Source: Psychromonas sp. CNPT3 (GTDB lineage Bacteria; Pseudomonadota; Gammaproteobacteria; Enterobacterales; Psychromonadaceae). Taken from it: DNA of 64,000 nt. Positions within the stretch are counted from its first letter, which is position 1, and the number at the start of each line of letters is the position of its first letter. Positions 50,813 to 63,733 of this stretch are shown here, piece by piece. The DNA lies in assembly GCF_000153405.2 (NCBI RefSeq), contig NC_020802.1, forward strand, positions 1,507,883-1,571,882, written 5' to 3'. Under the pieces are notes generated by a model. The model was not told the DNA's origin. It did not search any database and saw only the letters and a list, made by a program, of their open reading frames with translations. Position numbers and translations under genes: made by a program.

Positions 50813-50992
50813 CTAACCCATTATTAGACAGCATTAGACTGCATTAGCATTAATACACATCCAATAATGACTTCTTAGTTTATTTGATAACACAAAAACA
50901 TAGCAGCAAACAGAACACTGACATTTTTTCTTATGTATGTGTGATTTTTTTATGTTTAAATCGTGTTTTATTGTTATAGATACTTCTATAAA
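50813..50992. repeat. Cassette-type repeat, copy D (diverged, outside the array)
   Basis: Begins CTAAC and contains TTAGACTGCATT, TTAATACACATC, then ATGTTTAAA and TGTTATAGATACTTCTATAA in the same order as 54426-54610 and 63114-63290. Similarity is clear but much lower than among the array copies, and only the first 180 bp is present. The flanking 50663-50812 and 50993-51122 hold no gene I can support. Confidence 0.65.
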
Positions 50993-53924: not shown

Positions 53925-54017
53925 CAGAACATCACGGCAACGAGTGCTACTAAGCCGGCCTATTCTTGGCCGGTTAATCATCCCAATACCATTAAATTTA
54001 GTTTTATTAATAATACA

Positions 54018-54119
54018 GCTAACGCCACAAACACTGGTGGCGTACTGGCACTTTTTTGTGCCTTTGTTTTTTGCAAAAAACAGGACAGTTTTAGCCGTCC
54101 AGTGATTTGACTTGTTAGC
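54018..54119 (-). other. attC site at the distal end of the cassette array
   Basis: GCTAAC at 54018 and GTTAGC at 54114-54119 are complementary core boxes 102 bp apart. Inside are partly complementary arms, including CACTGG/CCAGTG and GGCAC/GTGCC. The gene at 54122 ends three bases beyond it, as a cassette gene should. The right arm (GTCCAGTGATTTGACTTGT) recurs exactly in the site broken by the IS110 element at 60252. Nothing integron-like lies to the left except a short AT-rich match to the repeat end. Confidence 0.8.
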
Positions 54120-54121
54120 AA

Positions 54122-54391
54122 TTATTTATATGCATAGCCACCGTTTGGCTTTACAAATGCGTTTGCTACATTATCAGCTTCATTTCGCTCTTCAGCCGAA
54201 TCATGAGTACTCCATATACTTTTAATTAATTTATATGTCCCACGACCACCTTTATATTTAGATCCATAGCTAGTGCGAAAACCATTTCGATTAAGGTGTA
54301 CAGCTAACTCTTCACCAGACATTACTTTGCCTTGATTACTTAGAAATGTAGCAAGATCCGAAATATATTTTTTTTTGATGTCCATATTCAT
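54122..54391 (-). CDS. Hypothetical cassette protein
   Basis: 89 residues beginning MNMDIKKKYISDLATFLSNQ; the middle GEELAVHLNRNGFRTSYGSKY and the end AFVKPNGGYAYK resemble small conserved proteins seen in integron cassettes. There is no signal peptide or membrane helix. The helical N-terminal part looks like a degenerate helix-turn-helix. Function unknown. It is the last cassette of the array, three bases from its attC. Confidence 0.8.
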   Translation of the reverse strand: MNMDIKKKYISDLATFLSNQGKVMSGEELAVHLNRNGFRTSYGSKYKGGRGTYKLIKSIWSTHDSAEERNEADNVANAFVKPNGGYAYK

Positions 54392-54425: not shown

Positions 54426-54833
54426 GCTAACAGTGTATTAGACTGCATTCTTACTAATACACATCTAACAATTACTTATAGTTCATTTAATAGCATAAAA
54501 ATACACTAATAAACAGCATGTTGGCGTTATTCGTTAATGAGTGAGTGATATTTTTATATGTTTTAAGTGAGTTCTGTTGTTATAGGGGTCTCTATAAGTA
54601 CAGATTTGATAAAAAGTATTGCTTTTTTACAGAGAGTTACACTTTTTTTGATGTGGAAGTAATGCATTTACTGCACTAAAAAAACAAAAAAATAACAATT
54701 TAAGACAAACGAAAATTAACCTGTATATAAACACAGGTTAATTTCAGAGCGCGTAAAATCATCACTTTTATGGCGTATTACATTATTTTTGGCGTGTTAT
54801 AAGGCTAAAGTTGTTAGAAAGTGACTTTTTATA
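54426..54833. repeat. ORF-less cassette-type repeat, copy A
   Basis: Starts GCTAACAGTGTATTAGACTG. It matches copy C (63114-63557) over about 400 bp and copy B (58395-58676) over its second half. The hairpin at 54713-54744 is a perfect 12-bp stem AAATTAACCTGT / ACAGGTTAATTT. There is no convincing coding frame. Its right end is replaced by unrelated sequence and an IS30 remnant. Confidence 0.85.
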
Positions 54834-54930
54834 TCTTAGATTCAAATAATAAGTGCATAACTTGAATAGGTGGGAAAAGTGGCCAGCTGAATATATGCTA
54901 ATCGTTTTTTTCCAGCAAGGGATTGTATTC

Positions 54931-55041
54931 ATGAAAACATATAAATATGAGCTAAGATGCCAGATTTGTGCTTTAAATAAAACAAAGTTGAGTCAAAATA
55001 AAATGGCGCGACAGTTAAACGCCAGCCAAGCTAATGGCTGA
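54931..55041 (+). pseudogene. IS30-family transposase N-terminal fragment
   Basis: ATG 54931 opens MKTYKYELRCQICALNKTKL then SQNKMARQLNASQANG and a stop. This resembles the first 35 residues of IS30-type transposases, where a helix-turn-helix (..LTQ.EIAKQL.VS..TISREL) follows. The rest is missing. Low-level support. Confidence 0.5.
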
Positions 55042-55082
55042 ACATATGGTAACTGCACTTCAATGTTGAATCTGCCCCTTAA

Positions 55083-55119
55083 AATGTCACATCTTTAATT
55101 CATTTAAAAATGTGACGTT
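55083..55119 (-). terminator. Hairpin after the repeat-lipoprotein gene
   Basis: AATGTCACAT (55083-55092) and ATGTGACGTT (55110-55119) pair over 10 positions, one a wobble. It lies about 33 bp beyond the stop of the lipoprotein gene on the minus strand. Confidence 0.5.
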
Positions 55120-55151
55120 AAAATTGACTTTATAACACTGATTTTAGCTTA

Positions 55152-57884
55152 CTAATCTGGAAGCAAAATCGCCGCGAAAGCACGGTCATTTCCAGTTATG
55201 GATTTAACATTATGGAGTTTTTCTTGCACGAAACTACTGTCCCCGCCATCGTCATCGTTACCCCATGTAACAACGTCGCCATTCTCTGTTATTGCGGCGA
55301 AAGCATGGTCCGTTGCAGAGATGGACACAATGTTATGAAGTTCAGATAGCACTAAACCGCTGTCCCCACCATAGCGAAAGGCTCCCCATGTAACAACGTT
55401 GCCATCCTCTGTTATTGCTGCGAAAGCACCGCTAGACGCAGATATAGATACAATATGATGAAGTTCTGTTTGCACTGAAGAGCTGTCACCACCATAGCGA
55501 GGCGTGCCCCATGTAACAACGTTGCCGTCCTCTGTTATTATGGCAAAAGCATAGTCTGTCGCAGATATGGCTGCAATCTTAGGAAGTCCAATTGGCGCGG
55601 AGCCGCCATAGTCAGCACTACCCCATGTAACAACATCGTCATCCTCTGTTATTGCAGCGAAAGCTCTGCCCGACGCAGATATGAATTTAATGTGATGAAG
55701 ACTATCTTTCACTGAAGTACTGTTACCTCCCGAGTTAGGGTTGCCCCATGTAACAACGTCGCCATTCTCTGTTATTGCGGCGAAAGCATGATCCGTTGCA
55801 GAGATGGACACAATGTTATGAAGTTCAGATAGCACTGAACCGCCGTCACCCCCATAGCGAGAGGCTCCCCATGTAACAACGTTGCCATCCTCTGTTATTG
55901 CTGCGAAAGCGCCGTACGACGCAGATATGGCTGCAATCTTAGGAAGCCCAGTTGGCGCGGAGCCGCCATAATCTGCACTACCCCATGTAACAACGCTGGC
56001 ATTCTTTGTTATTGCGGCAAAAGCATAGTTTGTCCCCGATATGGACACAATGTTCTGAAGTTTATCTTGCACTAAATCGCTGTCACCGCCTAAAGTTTCA
56101 TCACCCCATGTAACAACGTTGTCATCCTCTGTTATGGCGGCGAAAGCACCGCCAGACACAGATATAGACACAATATGATGAAGTTCTTTTTGCACTGAAG
56201 AGCTGTCACCGCCATAACCATAGGCTTCGCCTCCCCATGTAACAGTAGATATAGGGTTGCCAACGCGAACTGTAATTGTGTCTATTTCATTCGCAAGAGT
56301 ACCTTTGCCTGTGGCGGTGATCAAAAGTGTGCTTCCTGGCTCTATACCCGACGCATTCAACATCCCCTCATAAGTGATCGTAGCTTTGGGATCATTTGTG
56401 CTCCAATTAAGATAGAATATATCATCGTCACCATCGAGTGTTGAGAGCATTGAATCACTCAACTCAGCTTCAACCTCAAGTTGGGTTGGCGTGTCTATAT
56501 CGAGAAATTGATCATCAGAGCTGTCCCCATCGATCTTGATGATCAACGAATTAACAGTAACGATTTCATCAGAAATTATCACTGTTATTGTATCCACTTC
56601 CCCCTTTAAAGTTCCTTTTCCGGTAGCGGTGATCACTATTTCCGTACCTGTGGGAATACTCGTGGTATGTAACATACCTTCATCCGTGATAGTGGCATTG
56701 GAATTATCGGTACTCCAATAAATATAAGCCGTATCATCGTCACCATCCAATGTTGACAGTGTAGAATCACTCAACGTTGCTTTAATTTCAAGCTGAGTTG
56801 GTATGCCTAAAATGACCGATTGGCCATCGGAACTATCTCCATCAATATTAATCATCAATGAACCGGCCATAATAATTTCATCAGAAATAATCACACGGAT
56901 CGTGTCACTTTCACCATTCAGAGTCCTCTTTCCGGTGGCCGTGATCAAAATTTCAGTTCCCGGGATAATACCTGTCGTGTATAACATACCTTCGTCCGTG
57001 ATAGTGGCATTGGTATTATTTGTGTTCCAATTAATATAGGTCGAATCATCTTCACCATCCAATGTAGACAGTGTTGAATCGCTCATAGTTGCTTTAACTT
57101 CAAGTTGAGTTGGTATACCTAAAATGACGGATTGGCCATCGGAACTATCACCGTCAATATTAATGATCAATGAACCTGCCACGACCACTTCATCAGAAAT
57201 TATCACTGTTATAGTATCAACTTCTCCTTCAAGCTTTCCTTTTCCCTCGGTCGTTAATATAATTTCAGTACCCGGAGCAATACCAGTGGTATGCAGCATA
57301 CCTTCCTCTGTTATCGTCGCGTTTGCATTATTCGTAGTCCAACTCAGATATGTAGCATCATCTTCGCTACTCAATGAGGATAACGTTGAATTGTCAGTAA
57401 AATGGGCTTTTACTTCCAGTTGCGTTGGAATTCCTAAAATGACGGATTGACCATCTGCAGTATTACCGTCAATATTAATAGTCAGTGAGCCTGATTCGAC
57501 GACACTGTTTGTCACCTTCACATTACCCGAATCAGAAAATATTTTACCTTCGTGTTGACTCGTAGCCGTAATAACAGACGTTCCTTCTTTTATAGTGGTC
57601 ACCAAACCCTTGGTGTTGACGGTTGCGACACTCACATCTGACGATGACCAAATTAAATCATATTCACCTGTTACATCAAGCACGCTGTCACTAATCAGCT
57701 CTACTTTGGCTTCCTTCTGCCTCGTAAACCCCGCTGGTAATATCGTATTTTTAGGCGTGACCACGAGTTTGATCTTTGTTTGAGATGTTTGTGTTGGAGC
57801 ACTTAATAGACTAGTGTCACCATTATTACAGCCCGTTAATAATATGGAGAATGCACACAAGCATGCAAATATATATTTTTTCAT
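55152..57884 (-). CDS. Lipoprotein with bacterial Ig-like repeats and RCC1-like repeats
   Basis: 910 residues. Lipoprotein signal MKKYIFACLCAFSILLTGC with lipobox LTGC. Residues about 35-130 form a BIG_2 Ig-like domain (AKVELISDSV ... GLVTTIKEGTSVITATS). Four repeats of about 105 residues follow (units starting GSLxINIDGxSxDGQ and ending DTITVIISDE). From about residue 545 to the end come nine RCC1-like units of about 40-48 residues, each with a VVTWG...GGDSS...L..I.SISA...AFAAITEDG pattern. It is a surface-exposed, probable binding or adhesion protein. Its ATG overlaps the stop of an OmpA-like fragment. It is very large for an integron cassette gene. Confidence 0.85.
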   Translation of the reverse strand: MKKYIFACLCAFSILLTGCNNGDTSLLSAPTQTSQTKIKLVVTPKNTILPAGFTRQKEAKVELISDSVLDVTGEYDLIWSSSDVSVATVNTKGLVTTIKEGTSVITATSQHEGKIFSDSGNVKVTNSVVESGSLTINIDGNTADGQSVILGIPTQLEVKAHFTDNSTLSSLSSEDDATYLSWTTNNANATITEEGMLHTTGIAPGTEIILTTEGKGKLEGEVDTITVIISDEVVVAGSLIINIDGDSSDGQSVILGIPTQLEVKATMSDSTLSTLDGEDDSTYINWNTNNTNATITDEGMLYTTGIIPGTEILITATGKRTLNGESDTIRVIISDEIIMAGSLMINIDGDSSDGQSVILGIPTQLEIKATLSDSTLSTLDGDDDTAYIYWSTDNSNATITDEGMLHTTSIPTGTEIVITATGKGTLKGEVDTITVIISDEIVTVNSLIIKIDGDSSDDQFLDIDTPTQLEVEAELSDSMLSTLDGDDDIFYLNWSTNDPKATITYEGMLNASGIEPGSTLLITATGKGTLANEIDTITVRVGNPISTVTWGGEAYGYGGDSSSVQKELHHIVSISVSGGAFAAITEDDNVVTWGDETLGGDSDLVQDKLQNIVSISGTNYAFAAITKNASVVTWGSADYGGSAPTGLPKIAAISASYGAFAAITEDGNVVTWGASRYGGDGGSVLSELHNIVSISATDHAFAAITENGDVVTWGNPNSGGNSTSVKDSLHHIKFISASGRAFAAITEDDDVVTWGSADYGGSAPIGLPKIAAISATDYAFAIITEDGNVVTWGTPRYGGDSSSVQTELHHIVSISASSGAFAAITEDGNVVTWGAFRYGGDSGLVLSELHNIVSISATDHAFAAITENGDVVTWGNDDDGGDSSFVQEKLHNVKSITGNDRAFAAILLPD

Positions 57885-58212
57885 AAAATTAATTCCTTAT
57901 TTAGCAATTGATACTCACATCTCAAATGCCACTTTGACGATATTTTATAATTTAGATCTATGGCTGCTAGAGCATTAAGATCATGCGCGGATATTTTATC
58001 TCCTGATGAAAACTCTTTATCTATAAACTGATATCCCCCATACAAACCAAGCCCCAACGTTTTGTGATCACAAAACATGTCGTTATTGACACAAGAATTT
58101 TTAGCTTTGATCCTATTCGTTCCTTTAAATTTACAGTGTTCATGCTACTAGCTAATATATTCATGCTAATAAGACATGTAGAAGTTACAGTGATGAATTT
58201 ATATTTTGCCAT
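57881..58212 (-). pseudogene. Frameshifted small outer-membrane (OmpA-like) barrel gene
   Basis: The first frame from ATG 58212 gives a signal peptide (MAKYKFITVTSTCLISMNIL ASS). After a shift near 58135 the second frame reads KGTNRIKAKNSCVNNDMFC then DHKTLGLGLYGGYQFIDKEF, with LNALAAIDLNYKISSKWHLR and EYQLLNKEL at the end. The GLGLYGGYQF and alternating strands resemble an OmpA-type barrel. It is short, about 110 residues if rejoined. Its TGA overlaps the lipoprotein ATG (ATGA), so the two were translationally coupled. Confidence 0.6.
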
Positions 58213-58394
58213 CTATACCCTTGAAAATTAATTGATATTTCTAATCTATATATTTATAAACCACTATTATCCTAGTTCGTTATTAAAAATAATTACGTAA
58301 ATTACTTTAATTACTTAATTAAATTTGCTTTTTTTGAAGTTTGATCATCACAAAAAATAATTTAAGTGCTATTACGCTAATAATTTAATTGAAA
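58213..58394. other. AT-rich gap upstream of the OmpA-like fragment
   Basis: About 180 bp with no gene. It is rich in AATTA motifs and probably contains the promoter for the barrel-lipoprotein pair on the minus strand. Confidence 0.4.
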
Positions 58395-58676
58395 TCGCTA
58401 TAACCACAGGATTTGTAAAAAGTATTATTTATTTACAAGGGGTAGACTTTTTTAAAATGGGGAGGTAATGCATTGACTGCATTAAAAAATTGAAAAAATC
58501 ACAATTTAAGACAAACGTAAATTAACCAGCATGTATATGCAGGATAATTTTAGTCACGTAATATCATCACTTTTATGGCGTATTAAATTGTTTTTGGGAG
58601 TGTTATAAGATGAAAGTCGTTAGAAAGTGGATTTTCATTGATAGGGGGAAGTGACATTTAATTTATTGAAAATACA
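58395..58676. repeat. ORF-less cassette-type repeat, copy B (3' half)
   Basis: From tcgctataaccacag to aatttattgaaaatacag, aligning with the second half of copies A and C. It ends directly at GCTAAC of an attC (58677), so this repeat edge coincides with a cassette junction. Its hairpin (58519-58550) has a different inner stem, GCAT/ATGC, that still pairs. Confidence 0.8.
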
Positions 58677-58726
58677 GCTAACGCTGCAAACACCGAAAGC
58701 TGTCCGCGTGATTTCCCTTATTATGT
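58677..58726 (-). other. Short attC-type site with an altered core
   Basis: GCTAAC (58677) to ATTATGT (58720-58726), 50 bp. Other sites here end GTTATGT or GTTAGC; this one has A at the G next to the crossover point. The stop codon of the ClbS/DfsB-like gene (58721-58723) lies inside the box, as in the next cassette. Confidence 0.55.
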
Positions 58727-59230
58727 GAATTCTCGATTGAAGCGCCGAACTTTTGTACGCATATTTTTCATAGGTGATGACGTATTAAACTGGATCATGC
58801 GCCCTAAAGTCCATTGCTCATACCACGCAACGCCATACAACTCATGGTTACTTAAATTTGAAATAAGTAAAAGTATATCGCTAACCGTAGACTCTAACTC
58901 AACAAGTAGGTCATCGTATTTCCAATCACGATATTCTTTGTGAAAACAATCGGCAAGTAAGCCTAATTGATTCCACTTATAACCCGTTTCAGGAAAATCA
59001 ACATGCTGGTTTTGAGATTTTAAGTGATGCCACTTTAGGACAAGCTTGCCCCATCCAATCAAGTAAGCAACCGTATCACTAACGCTAATGGTTGTACCTT
59101 TGATGTTTCCCTCTACACCCTTTTCACGCGTGTAGCTTTCTGGAATTGAACGATAATCAGCCATTAGCTTGAGAATAATTGAGCTTATGGCTAACTCCAA
59201 TTCATCCTTATTTTTTGGTACAGAAGACAA
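58721..59230 (-). CDS. ClbS/DfsB-family four-helix bundle protein
   Basis: 169 residues. The DUF1706 pattern is clear: MSSVPKNKDELELAISS at the start, VSDTVAYLIGWGKLVLKWHH, FPETGYKWNQLGLLADCF and LYGVAWYEQWTLGRMIQFNT SSP near the end. ClbS protects against colibactin by hydrolysing its cyclopropane; DfsB is a relative. A role in resistance to a DNA-damaging or reactive small molecule is plausible but unproven. Typical integron cassette gene, ending in an attC. Confidence 0.9.
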   Translation of the reverse strand: MSSVPKNKDELELAISSIILKLMADYRSIPESYTREKGVEGNIKGTTISVSDTVAYLIGWGKLVLKWHHLKSQNQHVDFPETGYKWNQLGLLADCFHKEYRDWKYDDLLVELESTVSDILLLISNLSNHELYGVAWYEQWTLGRMIQFNTSSPMKNMRTKVRRFNREFT

Positions 59231-59245
59231 TATCGACCTCCATTC

Positions 59246-59360
59246 ACATGACGCTTTTGTAACAGGCGAATTTTATGAAGCAGTTTGTGTGATACTGATG
59301 CGCAGTGGCAACACAAAAATGTTTAGCTAAAAGTTGTCCCCGTGGAAGCGCGTGTTATGT
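59246..59360 (-). other. attC site between cassettes
   Basis: ACATGAC at 59246 and GTTATGT at 59354-59360 bound a 115-bp stretch with partly complementary arms. The next gene's stop codon (59355-59357) falls in the right box. The left box has one mismatch to ACATAAC. Confidence 0.65.
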
Positions 59361-60128
59361 GCATTTCCAGTCGGAATAATATTTTAATAAATAGATCTTT
59401 AGAGCATCTCTTTTTGACGAGTACTTATCATCAATTTGATCTAAATAACCATCAATTAAGCTAATGACTTCATTATCGGAACATTCACGATACCAGCTAC
59501 CAGATATTTTCAGATGACCTCCTCCACCTTGTAGTACCCATGAAGGATCATTGATTTTTATAAATTCAGAACTACGCTGACGTAAAATTCTATTATGCCT
59601 ACCATTAAAAGAGATCACCGTATTCGGACTTAAAGCATCTAATTCTTGACTCGATAACCTATCATTTTCACTCCAGTAGAGCATTGGACATTGATAATTT
59701 TTCAATTTTTTATCAGGATTAATATCAGCTCCATCATTCATAGAAAATTTGTAATAGTTGGTTACTGAGATTGAGTTATGAATCTCAGTAAAACTACTCA
59801 ATTTATCACCGAATTTTGCATGAATATATAGCCCTGCTATCGCAAGCATTACTTTATATGGTGCTATCCAAATGTTTGTATACTCACCAGCATCGAGCAT
59901 CTGGCATACCTTTTCCCGTCTAGTTTTATTCAATAAACTGTCCCACGGTTCGGAGACGTTTTGCGCCATACCGTACATAATGATTTTGTACTTATCATAT
60001 TCAGAACCAATATGAGGGATGTAAGGAGGAAATATATTTCCCATATGGTCTTTAGTGGATATAAGTTCATGGTAAGGTTTCAGGACTTCAGTATTGTACG
60101 CCTGAAAAATGTCTATTAAATTGTCCAT
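59355..60128 (-). CDS. Hypothetical cassette protein
   Basis: 257 residues from ATG 60128 (MDNLIDIFQAYNTEVL), preceded by GGAAGTAAC; the frame to 60212 starts inside the attC arm. There is no signal or membrane segment. Visible motifs are KIIMYGMAQNVSEPWDS, IWIAPYKVMLAIAGLYIHAKFG, and VISFNGRHNRILRQRS. Looks like a soluble alpha/beta enzyme. I do not recognise the family. Confidence 0.75.
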   Translation of the reverse strand: MDNLIDIFQAYNTEVLKPYHELISTKDHMGNIFPPYIPHIGSEYDKYKIIMYGMAQNVSEPWDSLLNKTRREKVCQMLDAGEYTNIWIAPYKVMLAIAGLYIHAKFGDKLSSFTEIHNSISVTNYYKFSMNDGADINPDKKLKNYQCPMLYWSENDRLSSQELDALSPNTVISFNGRHNRILRQRSSEFIKINDPSWVLQGGGGHLKISGSWYRECSDNEVISLIDGYLDQIDDKYSSKRDALKIYLLKYYSDWKCT

Positions 60129-60162
60129 GTTACTTCCATTTAGTGATTGCACATAATGCTTT

Positions 60163-60252
60163 GCTAACCGACGTAGAGGTTTGGCTTTATTTTTGCACTC
60201 TTTCTTTGGCAAAAACTGCGACAGCCGTTATGCGTCCAGTGATTTGACTTGT
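60163..60252 (-). other. Left part of an attC broken by an IS110-family element
   Basis: From GCTAAC (60163) to ACTTGT (60247-60252); the last 19 bases before the break, GTCCAGTGATTTGACTTGT, equal the end of the attC at 54018-54119. The remainder, ACTTGTTATGT, resumes at 61359-61369 after the element. Confidence 0.75.
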
Positions 60253-60266
60253 ATGGATAATAACCC

Positions 60267-60335
60267 CCTAAAATGATTACCATTTAATCCTTTTAGGGTA
60301 ATGTGAGACCCAAGCTTTGGCTGCAACCAAAGCTT
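60267..60335 (+). ncRNA. Possible bridge-RNA remnant of the IS110 element
   Basis: Hairpin 1: CCCTAAAA (60267-60274) with TTTTAGGG (60291-60298). Hairpin 2: AAGCTTTGG (60312-60320) with CCAAAGCTT (60327-60335) around CTGCAA. Both lie between the left boundary and the transposase start, where IS110 bridge RNAs are encoded. Inferred from position and structure only. Confidence 0.4.
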
Positions 60336-60393
60336 TCTTATACAACAGTTCGATGAATGCCAGGCTCCTCATTTGAGAGACCGTTAACAAGAA

Positions 60394-61341
60394 TGAACGT
60401 TGTACAAGACTCCAAGCATTAAAGTCGGACAGTCAACTGGGCCTCGAGCCCGAATAGCAAGGCGGAGTCAGCTTATTATGAATTGCACAAACAATCAAAA
60501 AGGCATTAAAGAAGCCATTAAAAAAATCAAACCACATAAACTGACGCGTATTGTTATTGAAGCTACGGGTCGACTTGAACATGCGTTTATCATTGTGCTC
60601 ACAAGCAGAATTACCGTTTACAGTGGCAAATCCAGCCCATGTTAAAAAGTTTGCAGGCGCGATTGGCCGCAAGGCTAAAACAGATAAACTTGATGCCCAA
60701 TTAATTGCACATTATGGCGAAGCCATTAAACCAACCTTATCGACATTAAAGCCCGAAAACATGCAGTTAATGAGCGATTTATTATCTCGAAGAAGGCAAC
60801 TCATGGCCATGCAAACCATGGAGAAAAATTGCCTTCAAATCATGCCAAAAGAGATCTCGAATATTATAAAACCCATATTGACTGCTATTAAAAATTAGAT
60901 AGAAAAAGTCGACGGTAAACTCAGTAAGCTGATTGAAAAGTGCGATGAATACAAAGCCAAAAACACCATCATTCAAAGTATGCCAAGCATCGGTCTGTGG
61001 TTGCTTTTAACCTATTGAGTGACATGCCAGAGCTCGGTTATTTAACAAATAAAGAAGCAGCATTATTAATTGGTGTTGCACCATTCAATAAAGAAAGTGA
61101 TAGTTATGAAGGTCAACGAAGAATACATGGTGGTCGCCATAAAATAAGAACGGTGATGTACATGGCAATGATGTCAGCAATGCAATACAATCCTGTTTTT
61201 AAAACTACATATCAGCGATTAGTTACAACAGGAAAACCGAAGAAAACAGCGATAATTGCCTGCGTTCGTAAGATGATTACCATACTAAATTCGATGGTGA
61301 GAGATGGTGCCATGTGGGATCCTGAAATAAATAAAAATTAG
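60394..61341 (+). pseudogene. IS110-family transposase, multiply frameshifted
   Basis: A short start MNVVQDSKH (from 60394) resembles the IS110 N-terminus. The frame then shifts to CTNNQKGIKEAIKKIKPHKL and IVIEATGRLEHAF, then near 60600 to LPFTVANPAHVKKFAGAIGR and KAKTDKLDAQLIAHYGEA, the RuvC-like DEDD region. An in-frame TAG interrupts at 60896-60898. Another shift near 60990 restores the C-terminal Tnp domain (LTNKEAALLIGVAPFNKES and GRHKIRTVMYMAMMSA). It cannot be active. Confidence 0.85.
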
Positions 61342-61379
61342 GAATTGACACCATAGTCACTTGTTATGTTTATAGGCTA

Positions 61380-61910
61380 TTATCTCACTCGGCCAACACA
61401 CTTATTACTTATATTCATTTTTTGGTCTTCTGATTTTGAGACAACTGAAAATACACCTTTCATGTCGTCAAGATTTAAACTGAATTTCATCTTTTTGTTG
61501 GGATTTCCCTGATTATCGTTAGAACCATAAGCAATACCATAGACATTTAACAATTCCCCTTCTTTTTCCATATAGTCTATACAGACAAGAGGTAAGCGTG
61601 GCTGTTTAATTTTAGTTAAAACTACAGGATCGTTAAATCCTGAAATTAAGACGACTGAAAATACAGGATTTATAGTTCCACGACCTCCAAAGCACTCTAA
61701 ATCACCTTCCCAATAAACAACGTATTGATCATCAGATTCATCTATACCCTTTTCCCCTCTTGTCTTAACAACTTTATATGAATCATCATTAATTGAACAC
61801 GCAACCGTTGAACTGAATTTTTTAACTAAATTAACAGCATCACGATTATCGAATGCAGTTACAGTATTTACAGCCGAAAGCATTAGAAAACCAATCATTA
61901 TTTTTTTCAT
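61380..61910 (-). CDS. Hypothetical secreted cassette protein
   Basis: 176 residues. Signal peptide MKKIMIGFLMLSAVNTVTAF. Mature protein about 156 residues with four Cys (SSTVACSIND, GDLECFGGRG, PLVCIDYME, SNKCVGRV), probably two disulfides in the periplasm. I do not recognise the family. The attC at its 3' end was rebuilt around the IS110 element. Confidence 0.75.
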   Translation of the reverse strand: MKKIMIGFLMLSAVNTVTAFDNRDAVNLVKKFSSTVACSINDDSYKVVKTRGEKGIDESDDQYVVYWEGDLECFGGRGTINPVFSVVLISGFNDPVVLTKIKQPRLPLVCIDYMEKEGELLNVYGIAYGSNDNQGNPNKKMKFSLNLDDMKGVFSVVSKSEDQKMNISNKCVGRVR

Positions 61911-61949
61911 TTTATTGCTCTTTTTATATAAAAAACAGGGTATATTTAA

Positions 61950-61988
61950 ACATAAACGTTTGCGTCCAAGTTAAGTAACTTGTTATGT
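61950..61988 (-). other. Short attC-type site
   Basis: ACATAAACG (61950) to GTTATGT (61982-61988), about 39 bp, with an internal stem AAGTTA/TAACTT. It has an extra A in the left box compared with ACATAAC. It lies between the 176-residue and 82-residue cassettes and is shorter than a normal attC, so may be truncated. Confidence 0.5.
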
Positions 61989-62009
61989 TTAACGTACTTA
62001 TTTATTTAA

Positions 62010-62258
62010 CTATCTTTCTTTATTTGATTGAGACAGAACAGATGCAGCTAGCTCTTTAGTATTTTCATTATATTTTGCACTCTTGAGAACTTTTGATGCC
62101 AAAGTTTCAAGTTCAGCACCAGTTTGCTTCGTTTTAGATTTTTGAGATAAAGCTGAAGCAGCTAATTTTTTAGCTGTCTGCGAAGATTTATTATTTTGTA
62201 ATATTTTCGCAGCCTTAGATGCAACTTTCTTAGATGTAGTTTTAGTATTTTTAGACAT
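62010..62258 (-). CDS. Conserved small hypothetical protein
   Basis: 82 residues from ATG 62258, with GGAG five bases upstream (the first of two adjacent ATGs is at 62261). The longer frame to 62378 runs through the attC and is not real. Sequence MSKNTKTTSKKVASKAAKIL then SSQTAKKLAASALSQ and YNENTKELAASVLSQSNKER contains two similar helical repeats ending in AASxLSQ. A protein of this type is widespread in Gammaproteobacteria and of unknown function. Confidence 0.85.
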   Translation of the reverse strand: MSKNTKTTSKKVASKAAKILQNNKSSQTAKKLAASALSQKSKTKQTGAELETLASKVLKSAKYNENTKELAASVLSQSNKER

Positions 62259-62365
62259 CATAACTCCATATGATTTGTAGATAACTTTAAAAAAAACTTC
62301 ATTATTAGATAAAGCATCAAAACTATTTACCCAAACACACCTGCATGAATAAACTGTAATAATAA

Positions 62366-62465
62366 ACATAACGCCCACTTAAGCGGACAAAAATTGTTGG
62401 CTATAATGTGAAGCGAAGCAAAACGTAGCCAACTGTTTTTGTTCCGTTTAAAGTGCTTGTTATGT
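62366..62465 (-). other. Textbook attC site
   Basis: ACATAAC (62366-62372) and GTTATGT (62459-62465) are perfect complements exactly 100 bp apart. The arms pair for most of their length, for example CCACTTAAGCGGAC with GTTCCGTTTAAAGTG, AAAAATTGTTGGCTA with TAGCCAACTGTTTTT. This is the structure of a Vibrio-type chromosomal-integron attC, and the best single proof of the array. Confidence 0.95.
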
Positions 62466-62470
62466 GACGA

Positions 62471-63094
62471 TTACCAACGACCTATAATTGGTTTGCTACC
62501 GCTTAAAGTTATTTGGTTTAACTGACCATGCCCATTAGTTATAGAAATGGATTTGTGCATTTTATTTGGTTTTTTATGAAACCAGCGGTTGCATATAACT
62601 ACTAAATCGATAAAGGTGGAACTTGACTCAAGGTGTTTAGCTAATGATTTAGTAACATCCATATCAGGAATAACCAAGAAATCCCCAGAGTTTTTTATAT
62701 AATCTGGTCCCTCCGCCATACTATCAAGTTTACTTTGCATCATTTTTCTTGGGATTGGCGCATCATATCCTTTAGAAAGCATAACATTTGGAAATTCTGG
62801 AGCCATAAAGTCAATTAACCAACCATCGGCCTCTATCCATGAATGAAACTCATCTTCGGATGATTTCAGCTGACCATCTACGATTGAGCCAAAACCTAAA
62901 ATATTTTCCACACCTAGATGATAAGCGGCAAACCCTGAATAAACCTTTGCGTTTATTTTATAATGCTCATTCAGTATGTAAGCACCACAGTAATTGTAAA
63001 ATAAACATGACTTATTGGTATCCGAGTTTTCACTTTTTAAAACGGCATGCGCAATACTATAAATTCTTTGATAATCAGAAAGTGTAATTAACAA
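62471..63094 (-). CDS. DUF2026-family cassette protein
   Basis: 207 residues from TTG 63094 (MLITLSDYQRIYSIAHAVLK), with GAGGGGTTAGG upstream; a GTG at 63115 is the longer alternative. Family blocks: CLFYNYCGAYILNEHYKIN, GFAAYHLG, FHSWIEADGWLIDFMAPEF and PRKMMQSKL. The Cys/His/Asp arrangement (CGAYIL...FHSWIE...WLIDFMAP) resembles transglutaminase-like proteins, but this is inference. It is common in integron cassettes. Confidence 0.8.
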   Translation of the reverse strand: MLITLSDYQRIYSIAHAVLKSENSDTNKSCLFYNYCGAYILNEHYKINAKVYSGFAAYHLGVENILGFGSIVDGQLKSSEDEFHSWIEADGWLIDFMAPEFPNVMLSKGYDAPIPRKMMQSKLDSMAEGPDYIKNSGDFLVIPDMDVTKSLAKHLESSSTFIDLVVICNRWFHKKPNKMHKSISITNGHGQLNQITLSGSKPIIGRW

Positions 63095-63113
63095 CCTAAC
63101 CCCTCTTAAAGTC

Positions 63114-63557
63114 ACATAACAGCGTATTAGACTGCATTCTTACTAATACACATCTAACAATTACTTATAGTTCATTTAATAACATAAAAACATATTAATA
63201 AACAGCATGTTGGCGTTATTTATTGATGAGTGAGTGATATTTTTTATGTTTAAAGTGAGTTCTGTTGTTATCGAGGTCTCTATAACAACAGATTTTACAA
63301 AAAGTATTGCTTATTTACAGAGGGTTATACGTTTTTGGATGTGGAAGTAATGCATCTATTGCACTAAAAAAACGAAAAAGTCATATTATAAGGCAAACGC
63401 AAATTAACCTGTGTATATACACATGTTAATTTTAGGTCGCGTAAAATCATCACTTTTATGGCGTATTACATTATTTTGGGAGTGTTATCAGACGAAAATC
63501 GTAAGAAAGTGGCTTTTTATCTTCATTGAGAGGGAAAGTGACATTGAATTTATTGAA
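63114..63557. repeat. ORF-less cassette-type repeat, copy C (fullest)
   Basis: Starts ACATAACAGCGTATTAGACT, so its left edge is an attC-like core box next to the DUF2026 cassette. It matches copy A over 400 bp and copy B at the right end (gaaagtgacatt.aatttattgaa). The hairpin at 63401-63432 is AAATTAAC, a mismatch, TGTGTA-TA-TACACA, a mismatch, GTTAATTT. Confidence 0.85.
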
Positions 63558-63733
63558 CTTTGGTTAATGAAGCTCGAGTATAAAGGGATCCTCGCGGGAG
63601 CTTTCTGCACTATTACGCCTCAGAGTATTGCCCCAAAAACACCTTTTGGGGAAATGTTATTTATTAGTTCATGAAGCAGCAGATGTGAATCGTACATCTC
63701 AAGGTTAAAGACATTACTATTAATGCTTCCTTA
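63558..63733. other. Gap between copy C and the antitoxin gene
   Basis: No attC is visible here even though one is expected after the antitoxin gene. A hairpin CCCCAAAA...TTTTGGGG lies at about 63631-63652 and could be a terminator. No gene is supported. Confidence 0.4.

Follow-up and report, generated by a model that had tools for sequence, protein, structure and literature searches.

The non-coding repeat that recurs in the 64-kb window (the whole stretch of DNA analysed here) is very probably an integron head, that is, an attI site with the control region of an integrase gene that has since been lost or has decayed. Such orphan attI heads would have multiplied and scattered over the chromosomes of Psychromonas, with the cassettes behind some of them being exchanged. 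The argument rests on features that can be read from the sequences themselves: the anatomy of the heads, their junctions with cassettes, the missing intI, the dispersal of the copies, and the differing cassettes found behind one and the same head.

The three copies of the original prediction are all present, on the minus strand, at 54428-54832 (copy A), 58395-58676 (copy B, a remnant whose attI end is lost) and 63114-63557 (copy C). They are 80-89% identical in comparisons made against A or C, and A and C share 89% identity. The block they have in common was said to be non-coding, and zero ORFs of at least 60 aa run through it; two ORFs touch its edges, one being a cassette ORF at 62471-63115 that reaches 2 bases into C, the other (63411-63674) crossing the far edge of C. 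A fourth and degenerate copy, H, which had gone unnoticed before, was found at 50828-50991 on the minus strand by genome search and alignment. In the window's own genome (G000, a single contig of 3,052,410 bases) the search gave 14 rows that merge into 10 repeat places, with a best off-self E-value of 3.6e-148. Eight of these copies lie in two stretches, at about 1463-1479 kb and about 1558-1575 kb, in one shared orientation, and the remaining two are distant from them, at 1071 kb (J) and 2020 kb (I). Six copies, A, C, D, E, I and J, keep the hairpin end described below; in D the cut is altered to CACT^TTA in place of CACTG^TTA.

Read along the minus strand, copy A starts with a palindrome that holds a LexA-type box, followed by about 125 bases, a second, TATAGAGAYCTCKATA-like palindrome, and about 150 bases to the cut, with the hairpin end taking up the final 36; a gene follows directly. 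The consensus of this end over the heads is TGTGTATTAGTAAGAATGCAGACTAATACACTG^TTA. In other words, a conserved 36-nt attI-like end finishes in ...CTAATACACTG^TTA, and cassettes with attC stand directly behind it. The attI-like end lies at 54428-54462 in A, with the cut between 54431 and 54430, and at 63117-63151 in C, with the cut between 63120 and 63119. The LexA-type box of A, an exact CTGT-N8-ACAG, occupies 54721-54736 within the 32-bp palindrome 54713-54744. There are two exact boxes of this form in the window against 0.45 expected, a number reached by 7 of 100 shuffles. Among the copies the exact box is found in A and D only: the corresponding palindrome of C (63401-63432) has one half-site degenerate, the box in B is degenerate, that in F is shortened, and E is without it. 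The 19-base LexA consensus has no match in the window. On the minus strand the palindrome of A has a terminator-like score as well and may thus double as a terminator, and its outer arms are left unexplained by the head reading, a point that we count against it. We also observed a palindrome, GCATTTATAGAGATCTCTATAAATGC or near variants of it, in the spacer of several heads of the genome G006 (e.g., loci L090, L088 and L091), and related forms in G000 and G001. Integron integrase promoters with LexA-type boxes have been described, and the loss of LexA control has also been linked to integrase inactivation (PMC3108266, in excerpt). On our reading, a head would be made of the remnant of a LexA-controlled integrase promoter region, a spacer with the second palindrome, and an attI ending in ...CTAATACACTG^TTA; gene cassettes would enter at the G^TTA cut and stand behind the head, and the integrase gene would once have lain on the far side.

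The suggestion that the element derives from attI had been made in the original prediction, and it is borne out at G001:C34, where the hairpin end is flanked by an intI pseudogene and the first cassette, and by cassettes joining at G^TTA. In G001:C34 the cut is 329 bases from the start of the divergent intI, which is in broken frames. Of 28 intI upstream regions from the genus, 17 contain the end motif TAATA..[CA]TGTTR, the G001 head being counted as one of these 17, and in 11 of them it lies at a distance of 215-245 bases; the background amounts to two chance matches in 50 kb of other DNA, counting both strands. Counted against the reading is that this strict motif fits only 20/39 heads. In a set of 37 heads, mean conservation is 1.43 bits at positions -36 to -1 and 0.20 bits at +4 to +40. 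The three bases of TTA score 2.0, 2.0 and 1.59 bits, and conservation up to +3 is partly due to selection, because the heads were found with a motif ending in TTA. The set includes two heads added by hand, as well as D and G001:C161, in which the cut was moved by one base by hand; nine wrong-strand hairpin readings were left out, as was a rearranged G006 copy in both its readings, and the later-found G006 copies (518, 3130, 1914 and 2333 kb, and others) are outside it. Some of the heads have a short stretch downstream (91, 335, 1161, 1617 and 1700 bases).

When a cassette is inserted, the bases behind G^ derive from its own attC, and they must match the R'' box behind its gene. A match of 8 nt plus C was found in 10/37 heads compared with 23 of 1328 mismatched pairs, and permutation gave a mean of 0.67 and a maximum of 5. 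At 7 nt the match is seen in 12/37 heads versus 52 of 1306 mismatched pairs (permuted maximum 7), and at 9 nt in 7/37 versus 7 of 1330. The loosest form, 6 nt plus CA, also gave 12/37; it discriminates less because its permuted maximum is likewise 12 (mean 2.7), a value reached in at least one of 2000 permutations. The heads that do not pass, 27/37 at 8 nt and 25/37 at 7 nt, are counted against the reading. Among the heads of G000, A, C, D and J pass at 8 nt and E at 7 nt, and I fails. In copy A, for example, TTAGCAAT behind the cut is the reverse complement of ATTGCTAA preceding the attC; in copy C the corresponding pair is TTATGTGA and TCACATAA. A GNAT cassette provides a view of the same junction from two sides. 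In G006 it stands behind a head, as ...CTAATACACTG^TTATGTTTATTCC, and in G021:C165 it stands behind the ordinary attC of another cassette, as ...AATGCGGCG^TTATGTTTATTAC, joined at the same base.

The genes behind the heads were also compared with 49 control ORFs from the non-integron part of the window. For the 35 heads with an ORF start within 250 bases, TAACAAG, the start of attC, occurs within -10 to +60 of the gene stop in 16, all six G000 heads with an attI end among them, compared with none of the controls; TAACAA occurs behind the gene in 20/35 versus 1/49. Pattern searches for attC were less useful. The strict pattern gave no match, the canonical form gave a few false sites and the looser form many. 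Automatic attC scoring separated 4/36 ORF-bearing head entries (wrong-strand readings among them) from 0/49 controls at a score of at least 14, with no separation below it, and gave no site at all for 16/36 head entries and 23/49 controls; it was superseded by the R'' test and the TAACAAG count. Judged by the junctions, the hairpin end appears to be an attI with insertion at G^TTRRRY, and the genes behind it appear to be cassettes with attC.

In the window itself, head A is followed by a minus-strand cassette consisting of a gene for 89 aa with no Pfam match (54122-54391) and an attC at 54017-54120, and head C by one, on the minus strand too, with the DUF2026 gene at 62471-63115 and an attC at 62366-62465, both attC sites coming from the attC scans and the TAACAAG count. 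Between B and C there are four further minus-strand ORFs that are putative cassette genes: one with DUF1706 (58721-59230), and three with no Pfam match at 59355-60212, 61380-61910 and 62010-62261, the last being a listed ORF of 62010-62378 with its start placed at 62261 by eye. A short degenerate attC-like site next to B (58677-58733, minus strand) was read by eye and missed by the automatic scans. Another attC-like site is interrupted, on the plus strand, by a broken IS110-family transposase (60400-61350) in two Pfam-matched ORF pieces. This attC/IS110 junction was recognised by eye behind the head of G001:C34 too (locus L097, behind 8540). IS groups that target attC exist, and the IS110/attC junction fits such an IS. 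The interval between A and B holds a 910-aa protein with Big_2 and RCC1 repeats (55152-57884) and no visible attC.

The integrase gene is missing from the heads, and its remnants are found at some of them. An intI above the family cut-off is present in 21 of 24 genomes of the genus, the window's own included; the three without it are G000, G004 and G021. There is none in G000, whether in cis to the heads or elsewhere, and none in the 32-kb phage record discussed below (which may itself be a fragment). The search of G000 returned four weak integrase rows in two frames of 307 and 316 aa, presumably XerC and XerD. The genome G006 has an intI without stops, of 324 aa, located elsewhere (1711251-1712198), and G021 has broken intI pieces on its contig C2. 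Stubs of the intI start were recognised by eye at five loci of G006 (L088, L089, L115, L086 and L117) and two of G021 (L128 and L125), with differing ends; in L088 and L089 an exact CTGT-N8-ACAG box precedes the stub. The idea that these copies share one common far end was dropped, as the alignment shows stubs ending at different places. The copies in G000 have no recognisable intI stub, which we count against the head reading. With no integron integrase above the cut-off in this genome, the G000 copies are most likely fossil landing sites now.

Beside the integrase-promoter remnant of head I there is, by eye, an apparent insertion-sequence start in the place of intI (L083, G000:C1 about 2021100-2021200), and a stretch similar to it lies upstream of intI in L061. 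Upstream of head J (L084 3185-4403, about 1070-1071 kb of G000) there are five tRNA-Val genes and one tRNA-Met gene; this locus is the only one with tRNA genes among the 37 head loci scanned. Head J also has a tRNA-like 3' end, TTCAAATCCTGCTCTCGCAACCA, uncalled by ARAGORN, about 40 bases before the integrase-promoter remnant, and this may be the mark of an older integration at a tRNA gene.

In a collection of 84,980 species the hairpin pattern was found in nine stretches, all from Psychromonas records; absence from these nine is no proof of absence, because G006 carries the pattern and is missing there. Copy C matched 9 of 60 genomes, its own included, of which seven are of the genus and the two outside it have one short row each. 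With a long head from G006 as the query, matches came from 7 of 8 chosen genomes, and in G006 itself the homology to it comprises 43 rows at 27 places (rows within 1.5 kb being merged) with a median gap of 91 kb; the attI end is missing in three of the 27. There was no match of copy A in a plasmid collection, nor of copy C in a phage collection. In a FastTree tree of the heads, which was midpoint-rooted and considered without support values, the six G000 heads with an attI end form one branch, most heads of G006 and G021 intermix, and one G006 head falls with G001, G015 and G023. This grouping by lineage points to multiplication within lineages. A 2731-bp segment that holds a head and two larger ORFs occurs twice in G006 (G006:C1 515706-518436 and 3128103-3130833; L151 and L152), 99.8% identical and 2.6 Mb apart, which suggests one recent copying of a head. 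Both ends of the segment fall within REP-like palindromes, which are also present in the remaining G006 stretches of the comparison, and the segment could be a repeat-bounded mobile unit.

These 27 places, and the near-identical segment with its REP-like ends, would also be expected of a MITE-like transposable element that is unrelated to integrons and came to insert beside cassettes by chance. We consider this highly improbable, since the unit has no fixed far end, as seen in the varying length of the intI stubs, while its near end is the G^TTA cassette junction, and the head does not reach to either end of the duplicated segment.

A somewhat slimmer chance still is given to the idea, which was that of the original prediction, that the block is itself a complete cassette with no gene, moving out of and into DNA by means of a core site at each end. 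The edges of the copies bear on it in both directions. A and C each start with a TAAC core site (GCTAAC at 54426-54431 and ACATAAC at 63114-63120), so the claim of core sites at the left edges holds for these two and fails for B, which is truncated on the left; the right edge of B does adjoin, as claimed, the GCTAAC of the degenerate attC-like site. The single orientation of 8/10 G000 heads in two stretches would also suit a cassette. However, the core site found at the near edge is part of the junction with the following cassette, whose own R'' matches it in the five heads given above, and no core site marks the far (right) edge of A, C, D or E; to the eye, C remains homologous to D, E and G beyond 63557. 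The unit has no convincing attC of its own: none was seen by eye or in the stricter scan, and the one pairing that the loose scan placed inside A (54463-54585, with 5/7 R and 6/7 L bases) is no better than the false sites of that scan. Copies elsewhere, in addition, adjoin intI remnants. A head may still be carried as part of a cassette, as the right edge of B adjoins the attC-like junction.

The hairpin that had been described as covarying is the palindrome at 54713-54744 and 63401-63432, i.e., the LexA-type box plus its arms. Of its 14 pairs, 2 are changed on both sides, each in one of four sequences, and 63 of 500 shuffles reach that much; for the attI hairpin the number is 2 of 10 pairs over 31 distinct sequences, which 124 of 500 shuffles reach. 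The covariation is thus not significant for either hairpin. That the block is a structured RNA or a leader selected for its folding, as had been suggested, is the least probable of these alternatives: three palindromes, a position upstream of genes and a fold of copy C somewhat better than that of shuffles (z -1.76, with 5 of 100 shuffles folding equally well) stand against the insignificant covariation, an Rfam search with no match inside the copies, and a LexA-type box in one of the palindromes, where integron integrase promoters carry such a box (PMC3108266, in excerpt).

The mobile promoter that had been claimed is a weak possibility. More heads than expected, 20/37 compared with a shuffled mean of 7.8 and a maximum of 16, hold an extended -10-like motif, but A, C, D and E are not among them, and scanning for sigma-70 promoters gave none on the minus strand within A or C. 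Expression of the cassettes from a Pc promoter in the head would be conceivable.

A phage provides a case of one head with different cassettes behind it. The IMG/VR record G060 (L109; 32,166 bases) has a spanin gene on one side of a head, and portal and terminase genes behind the cassettes on the other. The Psychromonas contig G021:C155 has the spanin gene and head as in G060, with 90.7% identity over 1007 bp. The two align up to CTAATACACTG^TTA, and from the cut on their DNA and genes differ. The simplest account would be an exchange at an attI without its own integrase, carried out by an integrase acting in trans. In the phage array the strict scan gave no attC; visual inspection placed one between the two cassettes. 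The second ORF behind the phage head (L159 1050-3761) has Mrr-type nuclease and STAND-type NTPase domains and is possibly a defence gene carried by the phage. In a second pair, L116 of G006 and L126 of G021, the flanks on the far side of the head match and the DNA behind the head differs, the end of L116 being rearranged. Exchange is not general, because L137, from P. aquimarina, and L138, from P. ossibalaenae, agree in both the head and the cassette behind it (97.6% identity over 1386 bases). A search for empty sites using L085 and L084 found no clean empty site.

Taken as orphan integron heads, the repeats would have multiplied within lineages to give several to many attI sites per chromosome, each with one to a few cassettes, and at some of them the cassettes would have been swapped after the heads had separated. 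Such an exchange at separated heads would require an integrase from elsewhere, and use of the heads in trans is what the differing cassettes suggest. One may tentatively go a step further, to a distributed integron, which we rate as a possibility somewhat short of even: in Psychromonas the attI heads would spread as repeats do, reaching scattered places on the chromosome as well as phages, and resident or visiting integrases would act on them in trans, each of the many heads being a landing site of its own, with cassettes ending up beside unrelated genes throughout the genome and not queued in one array.

Integrons are taught as one integrase, one attI and one array. The heads share with the platform of sedentary chromosomal integrons (intI, PintI with a LexA box, attI) the order of parts, the LexA-type box, the G^TTA cut and the attC cassettes (PMC3108266, in excerpt). 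They differ from it in having no functional intI in cis, in being several to many per chromosome, and in occurring once on a phage. There is a likeness to CALINs, clusters of attC sites lacking integrase, in the attC cassettes of a genome without an integron integrase above the cut-off. However, CALINs are defined by attC sites alone (PMC9892861, in excerpt), and here an attI-like head precedes the cassettes, repeatedly. The delta-attI-type cassettes of mobile integrons likewise have an attI outside its normal single place and involved in cassette exchange, but there a shortened attI replaces the attC of a cassette in resistance integrons, whereas here the attI lies before the cassettes together with an integrase control region (PMC12901181, in excerpt). 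Integrons and CALINs borne by phages have integron parts on a phage, as is the case here (PMC9892861, in excerpt); the difference is in the attI head without intI in the 32-kb record, and in the differing cassettes of two related phage regions. In the open literature we found no paper that combines integron, attI and Psychromonas. Judged by their titles, none of the works on Psychromonas and integrons is about scattered attI heads, and none of those on dispersed, multiple, duplicated or additional attI, on CALINs with an orphan attI, or on several integrons in trans describes anything alike. The genome paper of P. ingrahamii mentions phage integrases and transposases (PMC2405808, in excerpt). 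The parts are thus ordinary ones; it is the number and the arrangement that are unusual, with orphan attI heads that are multiplied and scattered.

Chromosomes of one genus with as many as dozens of attI heads that lack an integrase, together with a phage head whose cassettes differ between two relatives, would mean that the landing site can spread, and can be used, apart from its integrase. The scattered heads offer a natural test of the use of attI in trans, and they mark genome positions to which searches limited to intI and attC do not point. The phage head with its cassettes, in turn, would offer phages one route to acquiring genes of their hosts, the cassette with the Mrr-type nuclease and STAND-type domains, as in some defence genes, being an example.
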